IMG/VR virus record: IMGVR_UViG_3300037011_000065
Span: 1-37,191 of that record
Length of the DNA stretch: 37,191 nucleotides
Strand: one strand, 5' to 3'
Source of the DNA: a virus
Shown: one piece after another, positions 8,177 to 37,191 of the stretch
Numbering within the stretch: position 1 is the stretch's first letter
Layout of the letters: every line of letters starts with the position of its first letter
Made by a program: the position numbers and the translations under genes
The notes under the pieces: model-generated
The model's database searches: none
The model's input: the letters and a program-made list of their open reading frames with translations, nothing else
Told to the model about the DNA's origin: nothing

Positions 8177-8653
8177 ATGAAAAGAATAATTAACACAGAT
8201 GTTGATGCTCTTGACCTAACAAGAAATTATCATCAGGACAATGATATGAAACCCAGAGGTCTATGGTATGCCATAAATTATGAATGGTTAGCATGGTGTC
8301 ATGGAAACATGGATCATTGGATAAAACCTAACAACTTCTCCATTGACATAAACATAGATAAGATGTTAGTCATCTCCTCACGGGAGGAAATGAATGCGAT
8401 GATTATAAAATACGAAATAAAGATGAGAGAATCCTGGGCAATCAAAACAATGGATTGGGAAAGAGTTACCAAGGATTATGCAGGAATAGAAATAAGAAAT
8501 TACTACTCATTAAGAGGGTCTTCCCCATTTGAACACCTTTGGGTAAGTGGATGGGACATCTCGAGTGGTTATATTTGGGATCTATCAATAATTAAAACCG
8601 TTAAGAATGAAAAAATTAAAAACAAAAACTATTTATGTATTGCTGGAGAATGA
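8177..8653 (+). CDS. Hypothetical protein
   Basis: A 158-residue protein rich in tryptophan and tyrosine (GLWYAINYEWLAWCHGNMDHWIKP near residues 33-56), with no membrane helix. The central NFSIDINIDKMLVISSREEM segment reads as beta strands. No family is recognised. It lies in frame downstream of the TAG of the preceding gene and overlaps the next by 47 bases. Confidence 0.65.
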   Translation: MKRIINTDVDALDLTRNYHQDNDMKPRGLWYAINYEWLAWCHGNMDHWIKPNNFSIDINIDKMLVISSREEMNAMIIKYEIKMRESWAIKTMDWERVTKDYAGIEIRNYYSLRGSSPFEHLWVSGWDISSGYIWDLSIIKTVKNEKIKNKNYLCIAGE

Positions 8654-8810
8654 CAAATGGACTAAGGAAAGTATCCCGTCCGAAGTCATGGAAGAAAAGG
8701 TAATTCAATTCCTGTTAAACTCAAAGTATGGGGACCAGGGATGGAGGACTTATAAAATTAGGGAATCAACTAAATCTAAAATCAATGGGAAAGAGACAAC
8801 TGCACATTAA
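8607..8810 (+). CDS. Small hypothetical protein
   Basis: A 67-residue basic protein (MKKLKTKTIYVLLENDKW start). No family is recognised. It overlaps the end of the upstream gene by 47 bases and the start of the next by 26, so one of these boundaries may be wrong; the N-terminal 50 residues look convincing as protein. Confidence 0.5.
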   Translation: MKKLKTKTIYVLLENDKWTKESIPSEVMEEKVIQFLLNSKYGDQGWRTYKIRESTKSKINGKETTAH

Positions 8811-8988
8811 ACATGAATGGAAAGTATCTAACGGCCTACAGAAAGGCAAGTTATCACCACACACCTGCATGAGATGTAAGTGTGAGAAGTTTTACTCCAC
8901 AGAGTTTGACCAAACGGTGTACGTTGACAGGTTTGGAAAACTGTTCTACCGAGCACCCGAATGTGTCTTACCTAATACAAAACTATGA
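8785..8988 (+). CDS. Small zinc-finger-like phage protein
   Basis: A 67-residue protein with HEWKVSNG, then HTCMRCKCEKF (a CxxC pair with a nearby His), and a later CVLPN. This resembles the small single-zinc-finger proteins often found in phage replication regions. An in-frame ATG at 8728 exists, but 8785 is preferred because it reduces overlap with the preceding gene. Function unknown. Confidence 0.6.
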   Translation: MGKRQLHIKHEWKVSNGLQKGKLSPHTCMRCKCEKFYSTEFDQTVYVDRFGKLFYRAPECVLPNTKL

Positions 8989-10200: not shown

Positions 10201-11444
10201 TAGAAAGAAAAATTGTTATAGGATTAATTACTTCTACAGAGTTCTTGCGAGGGATCAAGGACATTTGGGAGTCAAAATTGTTAGAGTCAGATGTTGCTAG
10301 GCGTCTGTCAAATTGGTGTTGGGAGTACTATAACAAGTATGAAGAAGCACCTGGCAGAGAAATAGAAACTATTTTCTATAGCAAAATTAAAGACTCAACT
10401 TTCCCAAAGGCTATCGCAGAAGAGATTGAACAGGATATATTACCAGCGTTAAGTAAAGAATTTGAGATTACAGAATTCAACGTAGAATATGTTCTTGAAG
10501 AGGCTATTAAATATTTGAACGATAGACATCTTGCCCGTCACAATGAAGATGTTGAAGCCCTTCTTGCCGCAGGGAAAAGAGAGGAGGCAGAAAAGTTAGC
10601 CCTGTCATATAAACCTTTAGGTGGTAGTCAAATTAACATTGAGGATCATATACTTGATATTACACAAATTAGAGAATTAAGAATAACCCATCCAACAATG
10701 ATATTAAAACCCTGGTTAAGGGAAGGTCAGGTAACTATTTTGTATGGTAACTTTGGTACAGGTAAATCTTTGCTAACCTTGTTAATTGGATACTTGGTAG
10801 GGTTAAAAGATCCTACCAGCAAATATGCACAGATAGGAAGATGGCAGGTAAAAAATTCAACAGGTTGTCTTTATGTTGATGGGGAATTAGGTCTGGTGGA
10901 GATGGAAGAAAGATTAAAACAATATGAATGGTTAGGAGAACAGGCAGGACCAAGAAGAATACAAATATTTTCTTTGCCCGAGTATCAAGTTGCATCGGAA
11001 GATACATTTAACCTAGCATCAAGGGTTAATCAAATAAAAGTATTGCATTGGTTAAGAGAACATCCAAAATACAAATTGATTATATTGGATAGTGCAAGTA
11101 CTTTATTTGGATTAGAAGATGAGAATAGTAATTCAGAGTGGAGCAATAAAATTAATCCAATGCTGAGGGAACTTCGTGCAATGGGTATAGCCTGTTTACT
11201 TTTACATCACTCAGGGAAGGATGGTAGAAGAGGGTTAAGAGGAGCCTCTGCAATGGGTGCTATGGCTCATAATATTTACAGGATAACGGATCATGAAAAT
11301 AAAGATCAAGACGATGGGGAGGCTTGGTTTACTCTGTTTAAAGATAAGCAAAGAGCAGGCGGACTTTTATTCAGGACATTTTCAATACATTTTAGTCAGA
11401 CAGATAATAAAAGAGAAACGCATTGGGAAGTTACAGACAATTAA
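10197..11444 (+). CDS. Replicative helicase, RecA-fold (DnaB/RepA-like)
   Basis: A 415-residue protein. The N-terminal 140 residues are helical, as in DnaB N-domains. The RecA-like ATPase follows: Walker A GNFGTGKS (about 184-191), CLYVDGELG strand, Walker B LIILDSAS, and a DnaB/RepA-type LLLHHSGKDGRRGLRGASAM motif near residues 335-355. This fits hexameric 5'-3' helicases of the AAA_25/RepA group that unwind phage DNA with the primase. It is coupled to the putative loader upstream. It could instead be a RadA-like ATPase, but the operon context favours the replicative helicase. Confidence 0.85.
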   Translation: MIERKIVIGLITSTEFLRGIKDIWESKLLESDVARRLSNWCWEYYNKYEEAPGREIETIFYSKIKDSTFPKAIAEEIEQDILPALSKEFEITEFNVEYVLEEAIKYLNDRHLARHNEDVEALLAAGKREEAEKLALSYKPLGGSQINIEDHILDITQIRELRITHPTMILKPWLREGQVTILYGNFGTGKSLLTLLIGYLVGLKDPTSKYAQIGRWQVKNSTGCLYVDGELGLVEMEERLKQYEWLGEQAGPRRIQIFSLPEYQVASEDTFNLASRVNQIKVLHWLREHPKYKLIILDSASTLFGLEDENSNSEWSNKINPMLRELRAMGIACLLLHHSGKDGRRGLRGASAMGAMAHNIYRITDHENKDQDDGEAWFTLFKDKQRAGGLLFRTFSIHFSQTDNKRETHWEVTDN

Positions 11445-11456
11445 ATCAATTAAATT

Positions 11457-11642
11457 ATGGACAACACGAGAGGACAATTCGAACCAATTACTCAAACCAA
11501 ATTTGAGGAGCAGATGCAGAAACCAGAACCCTTAGTATTCCAGAAGGGAGAGATTATAGAAATACGCGGAAGTAGATTCCGAGTGATGGAAATCAGAGCA
11601 AATGGATCATTAAAGTTGAAACTATTACCAAAAATTAAGTAA
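11457..11642 (+). CDS. Small SH3-like phage protein
   Basis: A 61-residue protein whose second half, VFQKGEIIEIRGSRFRVMEIRANGSLKLKLLP, has the strand pattern of a small SH3-like barrel common in phage accessory proteins. No function is assigned. It follows the helicase and precedes the next gene by 2 bases. Confidence 0.65.
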   Translation: MDNTRGQFEPITQTKFEEQMQKPEPLVFQKGEIIEIRGSRFRVMEIRANGSLKLKLLPKIK

Positions 11643-11644
11643 CA

Positions 11645-11905
11645 ATGAAACACGCAAGACCAGATTACGATCAGATTCAAGATCCTGCAGGATTAATTCC
11701 TGAGGATGAACCAGTGTTCCTTTTACGGGGACAGGATGTATTAGCTCCAAAGTTATTGGATCGTTGGGCCAAGAAATTATTAGCCAAAGGAGGTAGTATT
11801 GAAATGGCTGATATTGTTTTTAAACACGCCGAAGCTATGTTAAGATGGCAGGCTACCCATAAAAAGAAAGTTCCAGATTTACCACAACTCCCTAAATCAG
11901 AATGA
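11645..11905 (+). CDS. Small conserved phage protein
   Basis: An 86-residue protein with the pattern DEPVFLLRGQDVLAPKLLDRWAKKLLAKGG ... AEAMLRWQ. From memory, similar small proteins of unknown function occur widely in phage genomes. It sits one base before queD, so it may be co-transcribed with the modification operon. Confidence 0.7.
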   Translation: MKHARPDYDQIQDPAGLIPEDEPVFLLRGQDVLAPKLLDRWAKKLLAKGGSIEMADIVFKHAEAMLRWQATHKKKVPDLPQLPKSE

Positions 11906-11906
11906 G

Positions 11907-12260
11907 ATGTTTAAAATTAGAAAAGAGTTTGCTTTCTCAGCAAGTCATTGCTTAGATCACTTACCTGAGGAACATCCATGTGCAAGGGTACATGGACACA
12001 ATTACGTGGTAACTATTGAATTATGGTCCTCACATTTAAATCAAAATGGGTTCGTTAAAGACTACCGTGAATTACAATCCATTAAGGATTTTATTGACAA
12101 TAAGTTGGATCATAGACATCTAAATGATGTTCTTCCTTGTATGCCAACGGCAGAACTTATAGCCTCACATCTATTCATCCTTTTTAGAAATGAATATCCA
12201 CAACTAATGGCAATTGAGGTGAGTGAAACACCTAAAACGTCTGCAAGGTATGAGCCCTAA
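11907..12260 (+). CDS. queD: QueD, 6-carboxy-tetrahydropterin synthase
   Basis: A 117-residue protein of the 6-pyruvoyl-tetrahydropterin synthase fold. It converts dihydroneopterin triphosphate to 6-carboxy-5,6,7,8-tetrahydropterin, the second step to preQ0. Visible are the zinc histidines in FSASHCL (H14) and VHGHNY (H29, H31), the catalytic C25 in PCARVHGH, LDHRHLND, PTAE, and the substrate-binding EVSETPKTSARYE. The length is normal for QueD. It overlaps queE by 11 bases and starts the 7-deazaguanine operon. Confidence 0.93.
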   Translation: MFKIRKEFAFSASHCLDHLPEEHPCARVHGHNYVVTIELWSSHLNQNGFVKDYRELQSIKDFIDNKLDHRHLNDVLPCMPTAELIASHLFILFRNEYPQLMAIEVSETPKTSARYEP

Positions 12261-13020
12261 GATCATCATTGAAGCCCTACCTAAGGATCAGTATATACCA
12301 ACCTACAAAGGGGGATTAGTATATCTAAATGTAGCAGAGTTTTACTTTGATACAATTCAAGGAGAAGGAATTTACACAGGATATCCTGCCGCGTTTCTCA
12401 GACTGCAGGATTGTACATTGAATTGTGTCTACTGTGATACTTCTTTAGTGTGGAAAAAAGGTAATCCTTACGCCACCCCGGATCTATTGGCTAAAATGAA
12501 TTCAACAGGTTTAGTAGATAAGTTACGTGCAGGACAGCATTTAGTTCTCACGGGTGGAAGTCCATTGAAACAACAACAAAAATTGATATTACTAATCAAT
12601 GAATTTATCTATCAGTTTGGATTTAAACCCTTCATAGAAATAGAGAACGAGTGTATTCTTATGCCAACACCTGAAATGATAGCCCTTGTAGATTGTTGGA
12701 ATAACTCTCCAAAGTTATCAGATTCAGGTATGCCTTTCAAAGTAAGGTATAATTCATTGGTACTTGGTACATTAGGAACCTTGAATAATTCATGGTTTAA
12801 GTTTGTTGTCACCTCAGAGGAAGATTGGGAGGAAATAAGTATGGACTTTATAGAGCCAGGATTTATTGAAAAAGATAGAATCATACTTATGCCCGAGGCG
12901 GCCACCCAGGCAGAACTGTTCTCTTTACAAGATAGGATAGTATCAATGGCAATACGGCATAACGTCCGTTACTCCACTAGGCTCCATATTGCGCTGTGGG
13001 ATAAAAAAATTGGGGTATAA
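12250..13020 (+). CDS. queE: QueE, 7-carboxy-7-deazaguanine synthase
   Basis: A 256-residue radical SAM enzyme that rearranges carboxy-tetrahydropterin to 7-carboxy-7-deazaguanine (CDG). It has FDTIQGEG (33-40), the cluster motif CTLNCVYC (C55, C59, C62, CX3CX2C) and VLTGGSP, all typical of QueE. ATG 12250 is preferred over an upstream in-frame ATG at 12223 because it leaves only an 11-base overlap with queD. The C-terminus RLHIALW resembles the QueE ending R.HK.iW with K replaced. Confidence 0.92.
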   Translation: MSPKIIIEALPKDQYIPTYKGGLVYLNVAEFYFDTIQGEGIYTGYPAAFLRLQDCTLNCVYCDTSLVWKKGNPYATPDLLAKMNSTGLVDKLRAGQHLVLTGGSPLKQQQKLILLINEFIYQFGFKPFIEIENECILMPTPEMIALVDCWNNSPKLSDSGMPFKVRYNSLVLGTLGTLNNSWFKFVVTSEEDWEEISMDFIEPGFIEKDRIILMPEAATQAELFSLQDRIVSMAIRHNVRYSTRLHIALWDKKIGV

Positions 13021-13033
13021 CGGGCGTGGAACC

Positions 13034-13055
13034 AAATGAAATTTGTATAATATGT
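13034..13055 (+). promoter_or_regulatory. TTTGTATAATATGT promoter-like motif, copy shared with 9442
   Basis: These 22 bases are identical to 9442-9463. TATAAT is at 13046-13051, about 45 bases upstream of the ATG at 13102. It would provide a separate promoter inside the modification operon, driving the acidic protein, folE and downstream genes. Confidence 0.6.
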
Positions 13056-13101
13056 CGTAATAGTTTTTAATAAATTTAGTATTAATCAAAATTTGAATGA
13101 A

Positions 13102-13782
13102 ATGGCTAATGAAAAGCAGTTGCGTAAAGCCGCAGCAGAGTTGAATGATGTCATGGGACTCGATCCCGATATCGACACCAAAGGAAGTGTCAAGGAATTG
13201 ACAGCAGGCATTGCCGAGGCAATCGACAAAATTGATCCCGACGATGAATTTACTGAGGCTACTCAGGCCGTGATTGATGAACTCACACCTAAGAAGAAAG
13301 GAAAGAAAGAAAAACCCGCTCCTGAACCGGAAGATGATGCCGATGATGATACCGACGATGATGCCGATGATGATGATGATGAGGATGATGAGGATGAAGA
13401 ACCGGCTCCGAAGAAGAAAGGTAAACCCGCACCCGCTCCCGTAAAGAAAGGGAAGGTACCTGTTAAGGATGATGAGGATGATGAGGATGATGAGGATGAT
13501 GAGGATGATGAGGAAGAAGCCCCGAAAAAGAAAAAAGCCGGTGGCCCTCCCAAAGGTGTGAAACCCAGTTTTAAGAAAGAGGGTTCGATGGCACAGTTCA
13601 TGGACGATACGGTCAAAGAGGGTGGAACCTGGGACGAGCTTCTTGCTACGATCGGCAAGGAGGCCAAGAAGAGGGGAGTCAAAACATCGCTGTCCACAAT
13701 CAAGGCACACGTTAAGTTTCGTGTCAGTAAGGATCCCAAATTCCTTGGTAAGTTAAAAATTACCGCTGATGGGGTTGAGTAA
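13102..13782 (+). CDS. Acidic/lysine-proline-rich low-complexity phage protein
   Basis: A 226-residue protein. Residues 1-60 form a helical domain ([18 protein letters not shown] ... [10 protein letters not shown]). The middle alternates Asp/Glu runs with Lys/Pro/Ala runs. The C-terminal 65 residues ([22 protein letters not shown] ... [11 protein letters not shown]) look like a small basic helical domain. Codons end in C or G more often than in neighbouring genes, and it has its own upstream motif at 13034, both fitting high expression. Role unknown; a nucleoid- or DNA-associated protein is possible. ATG 13102 is preferred over a TTG at 13093. Confidence 0.72.
13468..13512 (+). repeat. Five tandem copies of GATGATGAG
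   Basis: A perfect 9-base tandem array inside the acidic gene encodes five Asp-Asp-Glu units. It is prone to copy-number change and to assembly errors. Similar but less regular Asp/Glu runs occur in the SSB gene near 27150-27390. Confidence 0.85.
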
Positions 13783-14332
13783 GATCGAAATCATTACTCA
13801 AATTTTACAACACCTGGGGGAGGATCCAACCAGAGAAGGGTTAAAGGAAACTCCCCACCGTGTTGTGAAGTCTTGGAGTGAACTGTATGCTGGCTATGGA
13901 CAAGATCCGGCCAGCATATTTACGACTTTTACTGAGGTAGAAGGATACCAGCAAATTGTTATATTGAAAGATATTGAACTCTATTCGATGTGTGAACACC
14001 ATATGTTACCCTTCTTTGGAAAGGCTCATGTAGCGTATTTACCCAAGGGCAAGGTTGTTGGTATATCAAAACTTGCAAGAATCGTAGACATTTATGCTAG
14101 ACGTCTCCAAATACAGGAGAGGCTTGGACAACAAGTTACTTCTGCTTTAATGACATATCTAGAACCACAGGGTGCGGCTTGTATCATTGAAGCCAGCCAT
14201 ATGTGTATGCGTATGAGAGGTTGTTCTAAACAAAATTCAACAATGATTACTTCTTCTCTAAAGGGTGTCTTCCTAGAAGACGTTATGGTAAGATCAGAAT
14301 TACTTCAATTAATAAGTTTAAATGATGTATAA
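13769..14332 (+). CDS. folE: FolE, GTP cyclohydrolase I
   Basis: A 187-residue type I GTP cyclohydrolase, making dihydroneopterin triphosphate from GTP, the entry step to 7-deazaguanines. Motifs are complete: [14 protein letters not shown] (19-32), the zinc site CEHHMLPF (C75, H77/H78), [22 protein letters not shown] (98-119) and HMCMRMRG (H144, C146). Length is typical. It overlaps the acidic gene by 14 bases and the dehydrogenase gene by 11, tying it to the modification operon. Confidence 0.95.
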
Positions 14333-14948
14333 AGCACTGGTTACAGGAGCGTCCTCCGGTATTGGGTTAGCCATATATGAGGGACTCAAACAAGATGAAC
14401 AATTTAGTGAGGTACTTGGATTGAGTAGGCATGGCCCTGATTTATTTATAAATTTATCAATGCCTGTGCCCTGGACTGAACCTCTTATGAAAAAGGTGGA
14501 CTTACTGGTTAATTGTGCTGGGATCATGCCTCTCGATGGAGAGATGCCAATTATAATGGATGTCAACTTTTGGGGTACATACTGGATGATTATGAATTTA
14601 AAAAATTCTTTTACAAATGGAAGTTGCATAATAAACATAGCATCCGTATCTGGCTTAATCCCTGAACCAGACTTACCTGTGTATGCCGCATCAAAGGCGG
14701 CCGTAATCTCACTAACGAAAAGTCTTGCTAAAAAGTTTGCACCTGCTATTCGTGTGAACTGTATCAGCCCTGGTTTCTACAAAACAAATCTTGTGGAGGG
14801 AGATACTCCACAGTATTTAATTGATGAGATACCATTGGGCTATGAAGATTATCCTGAAAACCTTGTCCCCATTGTCAAAGTAATTTGGAATGCAGGGTAT
14901 ATGACGGGTGCTAATATTGTAATAGATGGAGGACTTAGTATATGTTAA
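14322..14948 (+). CDS. Short-chain dehydrogenase/reductase
   Basis: A 208-residue classical SDR. Visible are the NAD(P)-binding TGASSGIG (8-15), NCAG (64-67), the serine region INIASVSG (104-111) and the catalytic YAASK (Y121, K125), then a C-terminal [10 protein letters not shown]. All catalytic residues are present, so it should be an active oxidoreductase. Its substrate is unknown. It overlaps folE and the radical SAM gene, so a role in tailoring the 7-deazaguanine base or an attached sugar is likely but inferred. No QueF-type reductase is seen in the window. Confidence 0.9.
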
Positions 14949-15967
14949 ATTCATTAACTTATTTAACCAGAGGTTGTCCTCGGAATTGTGAATACTGTAA
15001 CCTACGAGACGCAAAAAATGTAGGTCAAAGGTTAACTATTGACGAATGGAAGACAGCCTTTCAGATATTAAAAGACGTAGGAATTAATTTTAACTTGATC
15101 TTAGGTAACGAAACATGGTTATTGGGGGGTTCCCTGCTAGATCTTATGAGGTCAAATCAAGTTCCTTATGCTCTTTACACCACTTGCCCAGAACCTTTGT
15201 TCAGTACGTACAGGGATGAATTCTTTGGCTCGGGTATAATTGACAATTTGTCCTGCGGTGTAGATTATGCCCCATTACCAGATATGTTTCAACCAACGGA
15301 TGATTCATACAAAAAGTCAATAGACGCTTTGAAAGGACTTGCTTGGCTCAGGGATCACTACCCAGACATGGATGCACAGGGTACTATTACCGTGCACAAA
15401 GGGAATCTAGAACAGTTACCAAATCTTGTAAACCTATTGACTTATATGAGGGTGTTCATTGGGATTAACTTTATTCATTGGAATAAGGACGGTCAGTATG
15501 ACTTCTTTCCATCCTATGATGAGATAGAACACCTCTTGTTTAAGAAGGAAGACTCAATGGAAGTAACAAAAATGATGTTTCAGTTGAGGGAAATAGAAGG
15601 GAACCTAATTCAAAATCCTGAGTTTATTATTCAACGTCCTTCTATATTAACACAGATGGGATGGCATTGTAAAGGTAATCCCTATGGAGGTCCTACCATT
15701 GATGCTGATGGACAACTGAGATGCTGTGGTTATCGGAGGGGTACGCATACTCCTGTCATGTCAATTTTTGACCTACCGGGTAATTGGGACATATGGAAAG
15801 ACTTGGTGTACAAAGACGCAATGGAATGCCCAGGCTGTGCTTGGTCTTACCCTTGGATGTATCACTATTGGGAAGCAACAGATCCTCGCATGGGAGAGAA
15901 GGTATTTGTCAAGCATGCAGGAAGACATATTTCAAAAGATAAATGGTCTAAAAGGAAAATAGAATGA
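14942..15967 (+). CDS. Radical SAM enzyme with C-terminal Cys-rich (SPASM-like) region
   Basis: A 341-residue protein. The N-terminal YLTRGCPRNCEYC has the CX3CX2C iron-sulfur motif (C12, C16, C19). The C-terminal third has further cysteines (WHCKGNPYGG, RCCGYRRG, ECPGCAW), suggesting auxiliary cluster ligands as in SPASM/twitch enzymes, and IDADGQLRCCG is typical of that region. It is distinct from QueE. Such enzymes perform radical C-H chemistry, rearrangements or methylthiolation. It sits between the SDR and a methyltransferase, overlapping both by 4-7 bases. The reaction is unknown. Confidence 0.85.
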   Translation: MLNSLTYLTRGCPRNCEYCNLRDAKNVGQRLTIDEWKTAFQILKDVGINFNLILGNETWLLGGSLLDLMRSNQVPYALYTTCPEPLFSTYRDEFFGSGIIDNLSCGVDYAPLPDMFQPTDDSYKKSIDALKGLAWLRDHYPDMDAQGTITVHKGNLEQLPNLVNLLTYMRVFIGINFIHWNKDGQYDFFPSYDEIEHLLFKKEDSMEVTKMMFQLREIEGNLIQNPEFIIQRPSILTQMGWHCKGNPYGGPTIDADGQLRCCGYRRGTHTPVMSIFDLPGNWDIWKDLVYKDAMECPGCAWSYPWMYHYWEATDPRMGEKVFVKHAGRHISKDKWSKRKIE

Positions 15968-16638
15968 AAAGTTTTAACGAAGGAAACATTCAATTGTTTA
16001 ATAAAACCATCTTAGACGATGCGTTTAATGACACTTACCAAAACGAAGACTTGTATAATGGTTATATCAGTGGTACTGTTCAGCTAAATAGATTACTGGA
16101 TAACAAAGACATACAAAGGATTCGTGATATAACTGATCCACGACAAGTTTTAAATGTGGGTGCAGGTCAGGCTAACTTAACCCTGTTTCCAAGACACACT
16201 CAGGTGGAGAATTTAGAACCTTGCCCACAAAGGAAGAAGGAAGGTACAATCGAAGGGTGGAGTGAAAACATTCCAAACAATGCTCACTCATATGATGTTA
16301 TAGTCTGTTGGGGTGTACTTTGCTTTGTAAGGGGATTACCTGAGACGATGATAGAATTTAATCGTGTCTTAAAACAGTATGGACACTTGGTTGTGGATAC
16401 AGTAACATATTCAACGATGGCACTTGCCCAGACAGTACACCCAGATAGTTTTGTAAGATGGGCAGGTCTGTTTGGATTTGAACTTGAGGAGAAAATTGAG
16501 TTCGGGGAGCATTACCATCAAAGGATGGGATACAGGTTTAAAAGAGTGGCAAACTTTGATCCTACAAGATTTCGTATGCCACAATGTGAAGGAAAAATTA
16601 ATAACTATCTGCCAGAAAGGGACTGGTTTATGAGGTAA
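15964..16638 (+). CDS. Class I SAM-dependent methyltransferase
   Basis: A 224-residue protein with a methyltransferase-11-like core: motif I VLNVGAGQA (about 62-70), IEGWSENIP, motif IV YDVIVCWGVLCFV, and EFNRVLKQYGHLVVDTV as motif VI. It has none of the target-recognition or NPPY motifs of DNA-base methylases. Within this operon it may methylate a small-molecule precursor, a base side chain or a sugar; that is inference. It overlaps the radical SAM gene by ATGA and abuts queC. Confidence 0.82.
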   Translation: MKSFNEGNIQLFNKTILDDAFNDTYQNEDLYNGYISGTVQLNRLLDNKDIQRIRDITDPRQVLNVGAGQANLTLFPRHTQVENLEPCPQRKKEGTIEGWSENIPNNAHSYDVIVCWGVLCFVRGLPETMIEFNRVLKQYGHLVVDTVTYSTMALAQTVHPDSFVRWAGLFGFELEEKIEFGEHYHQRMGYRFKRVANFDPTRFRMPQCEGKINNYLPERDWFMR

Positions 16639-16639
16639 C

Positions 16640-17203
16640 ATGATTGAACATAAAGTTATTCTATTATTAAGTGGAGGGCTTGATAGTACTCTATTGTTTA
16701 GGATGGCAAAGACTTTCCAGCTTCGTCCATATTGTATATTAATTGATTATAATCAAATACATAAACAGGAATTGGAGTTTGCCGTTGCTATCTGTAAAGA
16801 AGAAAACACTCCTTATCAAATTGTACATCTTGAAATAGATGTTGCATCTAAATTGACAACAGAAGATCTGTATGAAACAAAAGATGTACAACCTTACAAA
16901 GGGGTATCCCCATGGCACGTGCCAAGTAGAAATCTAATGTTTGTTGCAATAGCGGCAAGTATTGCTGAAAGTTTGAACGTAGATGAAATATGGTACGGAG
17001 CCAATTACGACGACCGAGAGAACCTATTCCCTGATTGTTATCAGGAGTGGGTATATGAGGTTAATAAACTATTAGAAATGAATGGGAGTAAGAAGATTAC
17101 TCTACGAGCTCCTCTCTTAGGCCTTAACAAAAAGGTGATAGAGTTTTTGTGTGATGTATTTAATGTAAATAAAACAAAAGTATTCAGCGGTTATGGACAA
17201 TGA
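16640..17203 (+). CDS. queC: QueC-like PP-loop enzyme lacking the C-terminal zinc cluster
   Basis: A 187-residue ATP pyrophosphatase. The PP-loop SGGLDST (11-17), VPSRNLMFVAIAASIAE and YPDC-equivalent FPDCYQEWV all match QueC, which converts CDG to the amide ADG and then to preQ0 using ATP and ammonia. E. coli QueC is about 231 residues and ends with a four-cysteine zinc site. This protein stops just before that point (FSGYGQ) and has no such cysteines. The downstream sequence in other frames does not supply them. It may stop at the amide, or use a different activated product. It overlaps the next gene by 11 bases. Confidence 0.85.
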   Translation: MIEHKVILLLSGGLDSTLLFRMAKTFQLRPYCILIDYNQIHKQELEFAVAICKEENTPYQIVHLEIDVASKLTTEDLYETKDVQPYKGVSPWHVPSRNLMFVAIAASIAESLNVDEIWYGANYDDRENLFPDCYQEWVYEVNKLLEMNGSKKITLRAPLLGLNKKVIEFLCDVFNVNKTKVFSGYGQ

Positions 17204-17567
17204 CAAAACTTTTACGAAATTAGTGGACAAGCAATACAGTCCACTGGTAATCAGAAAATATACGCATTGGGGTTTCCCAATCTATATAGGTTTGATTACG
17301 GACAATGATCTAAGCAACTTGGATGAGATATGTACCGAGTTTATTAAGACAAACATCGCAGACTGGGTGAATAATATTCAGAGTCTCAGAAACTTTGCGG
17401 GCAGGTTTTGTGATCACTTAAACCAAGTGTATGAGAAAACAGAAGGGGTAGCAGTTGTGTTATACGTTGACAAATGCTTTATCTCCTCTCTGTATGGAGA
17501 CTTTATGAACCACGAGTCCTGCAGGATCGAGTTCTACGGGTTGCTCAATATGAGTACAGGTGTATGA
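17193..17567 (+). CDS. Unknown protein in the modification operon
   Basis: A 124-residue soluble protein with no family I recognise. It has a tyrosine/tryptophan-rich start (YSPLVIRKYTHWGFPIYIGLI) and a C-terminal half with LYVDKCFISSLYGDFM. It overlaps queC by 11 bases and the PIG-L gene by ATGA, so it is probably translated with them. A role as a partner or a new tailoring factor in the DNA-modification pathway is plausible from position only. Confidence 0.7.
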   Translation: MDNDKTFTKLVDKQYSPLVIRKYTHWGFPIYIGLITDNDLSNLDEICTEFIKTNIADWVNNIQSLRNFAGRFCDHLNQVYEKTEGVAVVLYVDKCFISSLYGDFMNHESCRIEFYGLLNMSTGV

Positions 17568-18037
17568 AAAACTTTACAATCATAGCACCACACGCCGACG
17601 ACGAAATCATTGGTTGTTATGAACTGTTAGCCAGTGGTTTAGTCAAGTCAGTATTGTTCCCTGATAGAGTAACAATGGAAGAGGCTGAAGCTTCAAGTGA
17701 ACATTTTTTGTTTACAAGAGGTCTGATTGAGGACGAGGACTTTTATCGGTTCAATGAAAGAGTGTATGTCTTTCCAGACCCCTATTTCGAAGCCCATCCC
17801 AAACACAGGGAACTGGGTTCACTCGGAGAGGCTCTGCTTCGGCAAGACAGGCACGTAATTTTTTACAGTACTACAATGTCCGCGCCGTACATTCATGAGG
17901 TGTCACAGGCTGTAATCAAGCAGGTTTGCCTAAACAAGTTGTATCCTAAAAAGGCAAAGTTGTGGGAGTACGAACATAAGTACTTTCTCTTTGAAGGTTA
18001 TAATGAATGGATTGTAAAATGGGACGTCTCATTATAG
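17564..18037 (+). CDS. PIG-L/LmbE-family deacetylase
   Basis: A 157-residue protein starting MKNFTIIAPHADDEIIGC. The PHADDE (9-14) gives the His-Asp zinc ligands and catalytic Asp of the PIG-L family, and HPKH near residue 75 may supply another histidine. Family members remove acetyl groups from N-acetylglucosamine conjugates (GPI, mycothiol, bacillithiol). It is shorter than typical (about 220-250). ATG 17564 is preferred over 17474 because it overlaps the upstream stop as ATGA. It precedes a glycosyltransferase, suggesting the pair builds an amino sugar. It ends in TAG. Confidence 0.8.
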   Translation: MKNFTIIAPHADDEIIGCYELLASGLVKSVLFPDRVTMEEAEASSEHFLFTRGLIEDEDFYRFNERVYVFPDPYFEAHPKHRELGSLGEALLRQDRHVIFYSTTMSAPYIHEVSQAVIKQVCLNKLYPKKAKLWEYEHKYFLFEGYNEWIVKWDVSL

Positions 18038-18957
18038 TACCACAGTATCCCACCAAACTGAGATATCAGGAATGGTGGATTAACGAGTTCCAACGTCATT
18101 TTAATATTCTCTTTGGAGAGGTTGTCACTTTGGGGTACAGACCACTCGTAGAACAAAGAGCACAACAAGGATCATTTGCTCCAGGTAGGGAGGCTATCAA
18201 ATTTGAGACAGAGCAGATAAATGAGTTTATGGAAATGAAGTTACGGGACGATGACATCCTATTACTGAACGATTTAAGTTACCCAGGTTTGTTCGCCCAC
18301 GTACTGTTTCACAAACGCCCTAAGAAGTGCTTTGCTATTTGCCATGCTACAAGTAAAAACAGATTTGATATCTTTGCTGATGACAGGAAAATTAAATATC
18401 CTATTGAACGAAAGGTAGCAGAACTGTTCGACGACATATTTGTAGCCTCAGCATACCACGTACATAAGTTGGGATGGAAAAACCTTAGGATGTTTCCTTT
18501 CCCCTACCCACCATTTGAAGTAGATGTTCCCAATTCTTTTATTAGAGTATACCCCATAATAAGTGTTGCAAGGGATTCAAAACAAAAACGATCGGTAACA
18601 ATAGAGAAGGAGGTAGAAAGATCATTCAAATGTAAAATACTTCATCCCAAAGTTTTCTCTTGGAATGAATATTATTATGAAGCATTGGGAAGGAGTAAAG
18701 TTATGCTTATAACTGCAAAGGAAGAGACGTTTGGTTACCAAGTACTTGATGCCGTTTTAGCCGGTTGTATCCCTGTCGCCCCAAATCATTTTAGCTATCC
18801 CGAGTTGATTCCAAAAGAATATTTGTATAATAACTTAAACGAGTTATTTGACATACTAATCAAAGCACTTTCAGGTAGACTGCCAGTGCCGAAGTTGTTA
18901 ACTGAATCCAACTCTTTAAAGTTTTATCAATACTTAACAGAACATATGACAAAATGA
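18019..18957 (+). CDS. GT4-like glycosyltransferase
   Basis: A 312-residue protein starting MGRLIIVPQYPTKLRYQEWW. The C-terminal half has the retaining GT-B pattern KEETFGYQVLDAV (about 233-245) and then LAGCIPVAPNHF and SYPELIPKEYLYN. From memory this run resembles the C-terminus of GTDC1/QTMAN, the enzyme that mannosylates queuosine in tRNA; the motif also occurs in other GT4 enzymes. ATG 18019 is preferred over 18007. It overlaps the PIG-L gene by 19 bases and dpdA by ATGA. A role in glycosylating a DNA 7-deazaguanine is inferred. Confidence 0.8.
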   Translation: MGRLIIVPQYPTKLRYQEWWINEFQRHFNILFGEVVTLGYRPLVEQRAQQGSFAPGREAIKFETEQINEFMEMKLRDDDILLLNDLSYPGLFAHVLFHKRPKKCFAICHATSKNRFDIFADDRKIKYPIERKVAELFDDIFVASAYHVHKLGWKNLRMFPFPYPPFEVDVPNSFIRVYPIISVARDSKQKRSVTIEKEVERSFKCKILHPKVFSWNEYYYEALGRSKVMLITAKEETFGYQVLDAVLAGCIPVAPNHFSYPELIPKEYLYNNLNELFDILIKALSGRLPVPKLLTESNSLKFYQYLTEHMTK

Positions 18958-20042
18958 AAGCAAAGGTAATGTTAGACTCTGGTGCCTATACCGCACACAG
19001 AAAAGGAAAGCAGATCAATTTGGAGGCGTACGCTGAGTTTGTTAAAAAGTATCAATCCGAATTCTTTGCTTGTTTTAACCTGGACTCTATTGGCTCAGGT
19101 AAAGATGAACAAAAAGCAAAGTCAGTAGAAGGAGCAATTACAACCGCAGAACAAAGTTACCTTAATTGGAGGGAGTTGCAAAGCATGGGAGTAAATACCA
19201 TTCCTATTTATCACCTGGGAACAAATGTGCAATGGTTAAAAAAGTACCTAAAGGAAACTGATTATATAGCAATAGGTGCCATAGCAAACCTTAACACAAC
19301 GAAAAGGTTAATGGGGTTAAGTCATATTTGGAAAAACTATTTGACAAATGCAGACCAAACACCAAGGGTAAAGGTGCATGGGCTGGGGTTAACTGCTGTA
19401 GACATTATGATAAGGTATCCTTGGTACTCCGTTGACTCATTTACTCCTGTTATATCTGCGGTATGGGGAAGTATTCTTCTGCCTAAACTTGATAACAAAG
19501 GTGAACCTCACTTCTTTAACATGACAATTAACAAAGTTTCTGACCAGGGGGATCATAAGGATAATATGGAAAACAGTTATCTAAATGTCCCTGAAAGGAA
19601 CAAAAAGGTGAACCAACAAATGTTTGAAGATGAAGGGTTTGAGTTAGGAGAGATTGCCTACCAAGTAAAGAGGGATAGGAGAGGTAAAAAAGGAGAGCAG
19701 GAAAGGAAACCTCCAAAGCTACCTGGATTTGATTTAGTTAAACCTTCTAATCCTGACGTTCAAACATTGGCTAACAGTTGGGAGATTAGGATGAAGTGGA
19801 ACCTAATAATGTGGAATCACCTGCGGGAGAGGTTACCTGTTTACCCAAGGTCCTTCATAGACGTAGATGATGCTTGGGATGAGTGTGTAAACAATTATGC
19901 CAAGACAAATATGTTTATGGGTGTCTCCACTTTAACTCATTTGGAAATCTTTAGCATGATAAAACCGAAGTTAGACATATTAATCAGTTATGCCTATATG
20001 ACGGAAGGGATTCATAAGTCAATTAAAAACTATGTAAAATGA
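18954..20042 (+). CDS. dpdA: DpdA-type DNA guanine transglycosylase
   Basis: A 362-residue TGT-fold protein. LDSGAYTA (7-14) carries the aspartate equivalent of the TGT DSGGF active site, followed by FACFNLDSIG, YIAIGAIAN and KVHGLGLTAVD, with YPWYSVDS as in phage DpdA proteins. DpdA exchanges guanine in DNA for a 7-deazaguanine base. There is a charged insertion near residues 240-260 (RDRRGKKGEQERKPP). I cannot assign a DpdA subfamily by eye. Its presence with queD, queE, folE and queC strongly implies modified phage DNA. It overlaps both neighbours by ATGA. Confidence 0.87.
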   Translation: MKAKVMLDSGAYTAHRKGKQINLEAYAEFVKKYQSEFFACFNLDSIGSGKDEQKAKSVEGAITTAEQSYLNWRELQSMGVNTIPIYHLGTNVQWLKKYLKETDYIAIGAIANLNTTKRLMGLSHIWKNYLTNADQTPRVKVHGLGLTAVDIMIRYPWYSVDSFTPVISAVWGSILLPKLDNKGEPHFFNMTINKVSDQGDHKDNMENSYLNVPERNKKVNQQMFEDEGFELGEIAYQVKRDRRGKKGEQERKPPKLPGFDLVKPSNPDVQTLANSWEIRMKWNLIMWNHLRERLPVYPRSFIDVDDAWDECVNNYAKTNMFMGVSTLTHLEIFSMIKPKLDILISYAYMTEGIHKSIKNYVK

Positions 20043-20707
20043 AAAATCAAGGTCCTTCTCCTCTCCTTGAGGTGGAGAAGTCAAAAAGAATTACGAACTC
20101 AGGAACAGACACTCTACGTGATGATGTAGAAGGGTTTATGATTCCTGAGTTGAGAAAGTACGGGTACGATGGAAGGTTAGTCACAGCCGACGAAGTTAAT
20201 CAAAAACAAGCACGGAAAGACTACGAAGCTAATTCCAAAACACACCCAAGGGATATTTTGTTTCACAAAGCCTCAGGATTGTTTCTTGAGATTTGGAAAC
20301 AGGGTAGAACCACGCCCAAACTTGTTTTAAAACCTTTCGTAAGGGATTCAATAGCAGAGGTAGAAGGACTCCCCAGGTACAATTTAAACGCAAGAGTGGT
20401 AGAAGCTATGATGACCTACGCCAAGGATGCGGCTCGGGTAAAAGCAATTATGAGAGCCTTCTTTGCGTTGGATATGAGGTTCTTAATAATGACAAGGACA
20501 GGTCAGTTTTGGTTAGGTCCATTCCCCAGCATTAAAGATCACCAGTACTACTTAACCTATCGCAAGGATAAGAATGTATTGGATAGGGTAGCCGCCTTGT
20601 CTGAGGTAAAAATTGGAAAGTTTCACAGCATTAAAAAGGAACTGGCAAATGAGATAAAAGTGAATATGTATTACTTCAACAAAAATAATAAATATGATCG
20701 TAAATAA
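20039..20707 (+). CDS. Unknown protein after dpdA
   Basis: A 222-residue basic protein of no recognised family. Segments such as GYDGRLVTADEVNQKQARKD and FFALDMRFLIMTRTGQFWLGPF look like folded alpha/beta structure. It overlaps dpdA by ATGA and the sliding clamp gene by 14 bases. It may be the last member of the modification operon or the first of the replication block. The frequent Lys/Arg content suits DNA binding, which is only a guess. Confidence 0.7.
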   Translation: MKNQGPSPLLEVEKSKRITNSGTDTLRDDVEGFMIPELRKYGYDGRLVTADEVNQKQARKDYEANSKTHPRDILFHKASGLFLEIWKQGRTTPKLVLKPFVRDSIAEVEGLPRYNLNARVVEAMMTYAKDAARVKAIMRAFFALDMRFLIMTRTGQFWLGPFPSIKDHQYYLTYRKDKNVLDRVAALSEVKIGKFHSIKKELANEIKVNMYYFNKNNKYDRK

Positions 20708-36529: not shown

Positions 36530-37191
36530 AAACAAAAATCACATACAGAGACTTGGTAGCAATGAAACCATGCTATCATCCCAAGGAGATAGGAATTAAA
36601 AGTAATTATTCTGCTACTATTACTGAATTTATAAAAGAATATCGGGATAAAGTAAAAAACAAAGAGGACATAAGTTGGGTTTTATGCCGTAATGATTATA
36701 TGTCAAATAAAGATTTACGATTATTCGCTGTATGGTGTGCAAGGGAGGCGTTGAAACTTATACCTAACCCTGATGCAAGAAGTGTTAATGCCTGTGATGT
36801 GGCTGAAAGATATGCAAATGGAGATGCTACCCTCGAAGAGTTGATTGCTGCTTGGGATGCTGCTGGGGCTGCTAGGTCTGCTGCTAGGGATGCTGCTAGG
36901 GATGCTGCTAGGGATGCTGCTTGGTCTGCTGCTAGGGCTGCTGCTTGGGATGCTGCTGGGGCTGCTGCTTGGGCTGCTGCTAGGGCTGCTAGGTCTGCTA
37001 GGTCTGCTGCTAGGGATGCTGCTGGGGCTGCTAGGGCTGCTGCTTGGTCTGCTGCTTGGGCTGCTGCTTGGGATGCTGCTGGGGCTGCTGCTTGGGCTGC
37101 TGCTAGGGATGCTGCTTGGTCTGCTGCTAGGGCTGCTGCTTGGTCTGCTGCTTGGGATGCTGCTGGGGCTGCTGCTTGGGCTGCTGCTAGG
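36526..37191 (+). CDS. Ala/Trp/Arg repeat protein, truncated by window end
   Basis: ATG 36526 opens a frame still open at the window edge (222 codons visible). Residues 1-105 are a folded domain (ISWVLCRNDYMSNKDLRLFAVWCAREALKLI then DARSVNACDVAERYANGDATLEELIAAW), like the helical immunity-type domain found before such repeats in many phages and bacteria. From about residue 108 the sequence is almost only Ala with Trp, Arg, Gly, Ser or Asp every fourth position. It has no stop here. It may form one long helix. Function unknown. Confidence 0.7.
   Translation, partial: MKTKITYRDLVAMKPCYHPKEIGIKSNYSATITEFIKEYRDKVKNKEDISWVLCRNDYMSNKDLRLFAVWCAREALKLIPNPDARSVNACDVAERYANGDATLEELIAAWDAAGAARSAARDAARDAARDAAWSAARAAAWDAAGAAAWAAARAARSARSAARDAAGAARAAAWSAAWAAAWDAAGAAAWAAARDAAWSAARAAAWSAAWDAAGAAAWAAAR
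36846..37191 (+). repeat. Degenerate 12-base tandem repeat GCTGCTNGGNNT
   Basis: From 36846 to the window end, units of GCT GCT, then TGG/AGG/GGG, then GAT/GCT/TCT repeat with occasional shortened units. Variation is concentrated at the first base of the NGG codon and in the fourth codon. The array has at least 25 units and continues beyond the window, so its real length is unknown and could be assembly-limited. Confidence 0.85.

Follow-up and report, generated by a model that had tools for sequence, protein, structure and literature searches.

Does a phage that carries the genes for 7-deazaguanine synthesis make a base larger than the known ones and, if so, what do its additional enzymes attach? 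This question is raised by an operon at positions 11907–20707 of the window, i.e., the whole stretch of 37,191 bases analyzed here, which is a single IMG/VR virus record (IMGVR_UViG_3300037011_000065). All genes of the operon lie on the plus strand, in the order queD, queE, a gene for an acidic protein, folE, a short-chain dehydrogenase/reductase (SDR), a radical SAM enzyme (rSAM), a class I methyltransferase, a shortened QueC (QueCv), a 124-amino-acid T-fold protein (X124), a PIG-L-type deacetylase, a glycosyltransferase (GT), dpdA, and a gene for a 222-amino-acid protein (Y222). We conclude that the phage probably makes a glycosylated, perhaps amino-sugar-bearing, 7-deazaguanine that would be installed by DpdA. 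The initial annotation had proposed a larger, perhaps amino-sugar-bearing, 7-deazaguanine, and the two parts of this proposal fared differently: the predicted sugar is well supported by comparison, the same GT family standing among que and dpdA genes in six further groups of cultured phages, while the amino part, which PIG-L alone suggests, is tentative.

7-Deazaguanine Synthesis and Insertion

FolE, QueD, and QueE form the established route to 7-carboxy-7-deazaguanine (CDG), and DpdA inserts 7-deazaguanines into DNA. All four are encoded here: QueD, a 6-carboxytetrahydropterin synthase (11907–12260; PF01242, 4.5e-29; TIGR03367, 1.9e-24, just under the cut-off); QueE, the CDG synthase, itself a radical SAM enzyme (12250–13020; phrog_2076, 1.1e-41; first possible GTG start at 12223); FolE, GTP cyclohydrolase I (13769–14332; PF01227, 1.6e-73); and the DNA-guanine transglycosylase DpdA (18954–20042; phrog_887, 3e-43), whose catalytic Asp motifs are DSGAY and SVDS, both aspartates being invariant across 11 homologues. 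These family matches and the Asp motifs support the annotated synthesis of 7-deazaguanine and its insertion by DpdA, and it is near certain that the operon encodes this pathway.

Family and profile searches recovered all of the pathway, SDR, rSAM, methyltransferase, PIG-L, GT, and dpdA genes initially listed. An acidic gene (13102–13782) also lies between queE and folE. The overlapping or abutting arrangement described for folE to dpdA was borne out as well: from the junction of the acidic gene and folE to the clamp gene at 20694, the intergenic gaps range from −31 to +1 nucleotides. The corrected probable starts are 12250 for QueE, 17564 for PIG-L, and 18019 for GT.

Conservation of the Tailoring Genes

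To gather related loci, viral contigs were scanned with DpdA, GT, rSAM, X124, and PIG-L, and one genome scan was made as well. Eleven distinct loci were fully covered (the window, L002, L003, L007, L008, L009, L013, L019, L044, L061, and L069; L012 and L014–L017, near-identical to L013, were counted with it as one locus). FolE, rSAM, X124, PIG-L, GT, and DpdA are present in all eleven, and QueCv in ten, so that rSAM, QueC or its short variant, X124, PIG-L, and GT form a constant tailoring core. Since the gene order is altered in L061 and L069, the set itself appears to be kept, not just one inherited layout, and since it is conserved in many diverged loci, chance is ruled out and the operon is real.

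Co-occurrence with dpdA, on which the initial annotation had staked its proposal, thus holds for rSAM, X124, PIG-L, and GT but not for SDR (14322–14948; PF00106, 3.7e-27) or the methyltransferase (15964–16638; PF13489, 1.9e-8). Being present in seven and five of the eleven loci, respectively, these two are optional and were rejected as core parts; L007 has a methyltransferase of another kind.

A sister group (L011, L018, L060, L062, L063, and L068) also has PIG-L and GT, with other surroundings: X124 is nearby in L018, L062, and L068, and QueE is downstream in L011, L060, L063, and L068, followed further downstream in L011 and L068 by a divergent DpdA-like protein; rSAM lies elsewhere in three of the contigs.

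Several additional genes were noted by eye in the relatives: in L002, a Nudix-like gene (8549–8962) between dpdA and the gene for Y222, as well as a further radical SAM-like gene (11907–12719) among polymerase genes; in L061, an additional glycosyltransferase-like gene (11023–11814), apparently of the GT2 type, between rSAM and dpdA. L044, a contig of 12 kb assigned to a Halanaerobiales metagenome-assembled genome, contains the entire operon and is the sole match outside the virus collections; it could be a clue to the group of the host, or a phage placed in the wrong bin.

The Glycosyltransferase in Cultured Phages

A DNA-level search of cultured phages with the operon yielded no match. With tblastn, the GT of the window matches only PhiXhv-12-like phages; other cultured phages were reached by stepwise searches and with the GT profile. 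These placed the GT family in six additional groups of cultured phages, with 7-deazaguanine genes for neighbors and in most cases next to dpdA; two of the groups also have PIG-L.

In PhiXhv-12, the genes for Gat-QueC, PIG-L (Pfam, 3.5e-7), and GT are contiguous in this order, QueD being encoded elsewhere in the genome. Xanthomonas phage X1 combines FolE, a PAPS-reductase-like protein, PIG-L, GT, DpdA, and QueE, and Acidovorax phage ACP17 combines QueD, FolE, DpdA, GT, and QueE. In the Pseudomonas PA5oct-like phages PAC2 and MIJ3, DpdA abuts GT and QueE is also present; in Sinorhizobium phage Phosso, GT occurs with FolE and QueE, and a nearby DpdA was not identified. As a held-out test, Synechococcus phage BUCT-ZZ01, the sole new match of the X1 GT, has GT near QueE, QueD, FolE, and DpdA. 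For a random GT to lie no more than five genes from these genes in all six groups, the probability is below approximately 1e-6, a rough estimate that takes as given that each phage has these 7-deazaguanine genes and applies to groups that are perhaps not fully independent. The DpdA proteins of the GT loci belong to different families (phrog_887, phrog_10773, or none), and so joint inheritance with a single dpdA is not enough to account for GT. PhiXhv-12, with no phrog_887 match, was considered as a phage without DpdA; this was rejected, as a TGT-like protein with the motifs DSGGFQ and CTCPIC is encoded at 216.5–218.2 kb.

Other genes at these loci were observed in passing. A guanine/xanthine phosphoribosyltransferase gene lies beside queE in PAC2 (L050, 8189–8623), MIJ3 (L095, 8208–8642), and BUCT-ZZ01 (L094, 5102–5563), and its product might convert the deazaguanine base to a nucleotide. 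In PhiXhv-12 (L004, 7276–12441), acyltransferase-type genes (leucyl/phenylalanyl-tRNA transferase and a double GNAT) immediately precede Gat-QueC, PIG-L, and GT, and could acylate an amine released by PIG-L. L048 (13642–14013), L049 (7916–8299), L050 (7006–7383), L051 (5375–5758), and L094 (9647–10009) each encode a small protein conserved across these loci, which in X1 belongs to phrog_17812, a family of unknown function, and which is QueD-like by eye. The DNA-modification terms searched for were not found in the MIJ3 genome paper.

Enzymes of the Tailoring Core

Homologue profiles were needed to place both GT and PIG-L, since single-sequence Pfam scans missed them. GT (18019–18957) is a GT4-like enzyme of the GT-B type, its profile reaching 5i45, a structure of glycosyltransferase group 1, at E 0.0018; the same profile matches the proteins of PhiXhv-12, X1, ACP17, PAC2, and Phosso at 1e-12 to 1e-27, and the PAC2 homologue is annotated as glycosyltransferase family 4. 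For PIG-L (17564–18037), a PIG-L-type de-N-acetylase, the profile leads to diacetylchitobiose deacetylase (E 0.004), and the single-sequence scan of this open reading frame gave no PF02585 match above the cut-off. The motifs HxDD and HPxH (HADDE and HPKH in the window) are invariant in the alignment of 11 sequences; among remoter operon-associated relatives, no HPxH could be found in either L068 or L071, and phage X1 has HSQH.

QueCv (16640–17203; PF06508, 4.9e-30) has the motifs SGGLDS, YNQIHKQE, VPSRN, and FPDC, corresponding to SGGxDS, YxQxHxxE, VPxRN, and YPDC of canonical QueC (PF06508 cluster 1), the last with Tyr replaced by Phe. The definition of these motifs comes from Escherichia coli QueC, in which mutagenesis has tested them in part and Y131F retains partial activity (PMC13329287). 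The chain of QueCv stops at the tyrosine preceding the zinc knuckle, and the canonical zinc motif C(x)8CxxCxxC is absent from all 13 proteins examined (QueCv of the window and 12 homologues); it is present in the controls, QueC of L009 and Gat-QueC of PhiXhv (L004). In the PDB profile search, QueC comes first (3e-27) and Cap9 next (4.5e-10). Cap9 couples CDG to a protein amine rather than to ammonia (PMC13279940), and thus sets a precedent for an amine-ligating QueC.

X124 (17193–17567), placed by fold alone, has no sequence match in Pfam or PDB, and a protein search found no homologues in cultured phages. Its AlphaFold2 model (pLDDT 83) has the topology beta-beta-alpha-alpha-beta-beta-alpha, and Foldseek matches it to GTP cyclohydrolase I (E 2.6e-4, probability 1.00), as well as to urate oxidase and dihydroneopterin aldolase, all of them T-folds; with respect to QueF, Foldseek favors GTP cyclohydrolase I. 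The profile alignment of X124 with FolE of the same loci is full-length and has the zinc ligands of FolE gapped out, its probability being low and its sequences few. A fold search of BFVD gave only a weak QueD match. Conserved residues are Asp103, His107, and Cys110, among which, in an alignment containing no QueF sequence, the catalytic Cys/Asp pair of QueF was not identified. As modeled, X124 is a GTP cyclohydrolase I fold minus the zinc ligands.

rSAM (14942–15967; PF04055, 8.7e-6, under the cut-off) is a twitch-type radical SAM enzyme with CxxxCxxC at residues 12–19, CX13GX4C at 243–262, and CxxC at 296–299, the four auxiliary cysteines being invariant in 10 homologues. The profile search points to SkfB (1.9e-5), and the AlphaFold2 model (pLDDT 84) is matched by Foldseek to MoaA, SuiB, PqqE, and BlsE, which does not fix the reaction. 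The archaeosine enzyme RaSEA was rejected as an identity, there being no NCBIfam match. A protein search found no rSAM homologues in cultured phages.

Remaining Genes and Flanking Features

The acidic low-complexity protein (13102–13782), for which family scans gave no specific family, keeps its position in relatives and has homologues at L002, L003, L007, L008, L009, L013, and L019. Y222 (20039–20707), coupled to dpdA and without a family in the scans, has clear homologues limited to L002 and L003. Replication genes follow the operon directly (clamp, UDG-exonuclease, DNA polymerase A, and clamp loader), and the record has tandem 12-base repeats at its right end (36798–37185).

Proposed Pathway and Alternative Explanations

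In the pathway that we propose, FolE, QueD, and QueE would convert GTP to CDG, whose carboxylate QueCv, judging from its retained motifs, would activate with ATP to form an amide. The GT4-like enzyme would use a nucleotide sugar to glycosylate 7-deazaguanine, or a group later joined to 7-deazaguanine, and PIG-L would, in the window clade, remove an N-acetyl group to leave a free amine; both roles are suggested by the enzyme families and their constant company with dpdA. Further tailoring of the sugar group may be performed by rSAM, along with SDR and the methyltransferase where these are present; X124 may, given its fold, bind the deazapurine as an enzyme or a chaperone; and DpdA, by its family function, would put the base into phage DNA in exchange for guanine. 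By analogy with known 7-deazaguanine phages, the sugar-bearing base would likely shield the DNA against host nucleases.

Several observations weigh against this pathway. L009 encodes a full zinc QueC where the other ten loci have QueCv; the profile detected no PIG-L at the loci of ACP17, PAC2, Phosso, and BUCT-ZZ01, and hence deacetylation is not general; the 58.8-kb fragment G014 contains X124, PIG-L, GT, and rSAM, with QueC, QueD, and DpdA not found; and the links of the GT profile to solved structures are weak.

The order of steps could also differ, GT acting on the base only once DpdA has inserted it into DNA, as the T4 glucosyltransferases act on hydroxymethylcytosine. We regard this order as possible, if somewhat doubtful: GT adjoins dpdA, with at most one small gene between them, in the window clade, PAC2/MIJ3, ACP17, X1, and BUCT-ZZ01, but no DNA-binding domain was recognized in GT or PIG-L. 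To our knowledge, twitch-type radical SAM enzymes act on small molecules or peptides, which also weighs against modification after insertion.

Another, unlikely, form of the pathway would resemble mycothiol synthesis: GT (cf. MshA/BshA) would make an N-acetylglucosamine conjugate, PIG-L (cf. MshB/BshB) would free its amine, the zinc-less QueC, in the role of MshC and with the chemistry of Cap9, would join CDG to this amine by an amide bond, and DpdA would insert the conjugate. The order is an attractive one. In 10 of the 11 loci, GT and PIG-L are accompanied by an enzyme for the ATP-dependent activation of carboxylates, QueCv retains the CDG and ATP motifs of QueC, and Cap9 is its next profile match. 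However, Cap9 keeps the zinc that QueCv lacks, Gat-QueC of PhiXhv-12 is of an ammonia-channeling design, and, because L009 has a canonical QueC and because QueC or PIG-L is not seen at the loci of several GT phages, such an order is unlikely as a general rule. If it were true, the GT family would mark a widespread class of phages with sugar-bearing 7-deazaguanine.

It is equally improbable that the base is a simple known one (CDG, 7-amido-7-deazaguanine, or preQ0), with GT, PIG-L, rSAM, and SDR serving other glycan, envelope, or thiol chemistry that shares the operon. FolE, QueD, QueE, QueC, and DpdA would suffice for the known bases, SDR and the methyltransferase are optional, and weak PIG-L relatives occur in other surroundings in viral contigs (L072, L073, and L076), but rSAM, X124, PIG-L, and GT are inseparable from FolE and DpdA in the covered loci, and seven phage groups, whose DpdA proteins belong to different families, have GT among their que and dpdA genes.

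Comparison with Known Systems

Known phage 7-deazaguanines bear small groups at C7. The FolE–QueD–QueE–QueC–DpdA systems of phages 9g, CAjan, and Rosebush share with the window the CDG genes and a DpdA with two Asp motifs, united in one operon, whereas the window adds GT, PIG-L, the twitch rSAM, and the T-fold protein, and its QueC is without zinc. Glycosyl groups are unmentioned in the 2019 paper on these three phages, and no report of glycosylated 7-deazaguanine in DNA, or of the pairing of dpdA with GT, was found in a search whose scope left out Cui et al. 2023 (NAR) and non-open papers. New here are the GT family among 7-deazaguanine genes across cultured phages, the zinc-less short QueC, and the T-fold protein X124, the latter two offering new enzymology.

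Cap9 of type IV CBASS is, like QueCv, a short QueC with the CDG and ATP motifs kept, but it has the zinc cysteines and works with a CD-NTase; general family scans recognized no CD-NTase among the operon proteins. X124 resembles QueF-Like archaeosine synthase and GTP cyclohydrolase I in being a small T-fold protein of a deazaguanine pathway, and differs from the latter in having no zinc ligands. The mycothiol and bacillithiol pathways (MshA–MshB–MshC and BshA–BshB–BshC) have the same pairing of a GT4-like enzyme with a PIG-L enzyme and, possibly, the ATP-dependent acylation of the freed amine; the similarity to BshA is, however, weak (0.04), MshC and BshC are lacking, and the set is located with dpdA.

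The pairing of GT with dpdA is a simple genomic marker, and because it occurs in phages in culture (PA5oct/MIJ3-like phages, ACP17, X1, PhiXhv, Phosso, and BUCT-ZZ01), mass spectrometry could test for the sugar now. A sugar-bearing base, if true, predicts host enzymes that attack it. In the role proposed for it, GT would be comparable to the T4 alpha- and beta-glucosyltransferases, likewise phage enzymes acting on a DNA base, although the base here would be 7-deazaguanine and not hydroxymethylcytosine; a sugar at C7 would open a new class of hypermodified DNA and give glucosylated cytosine a purine parallel.

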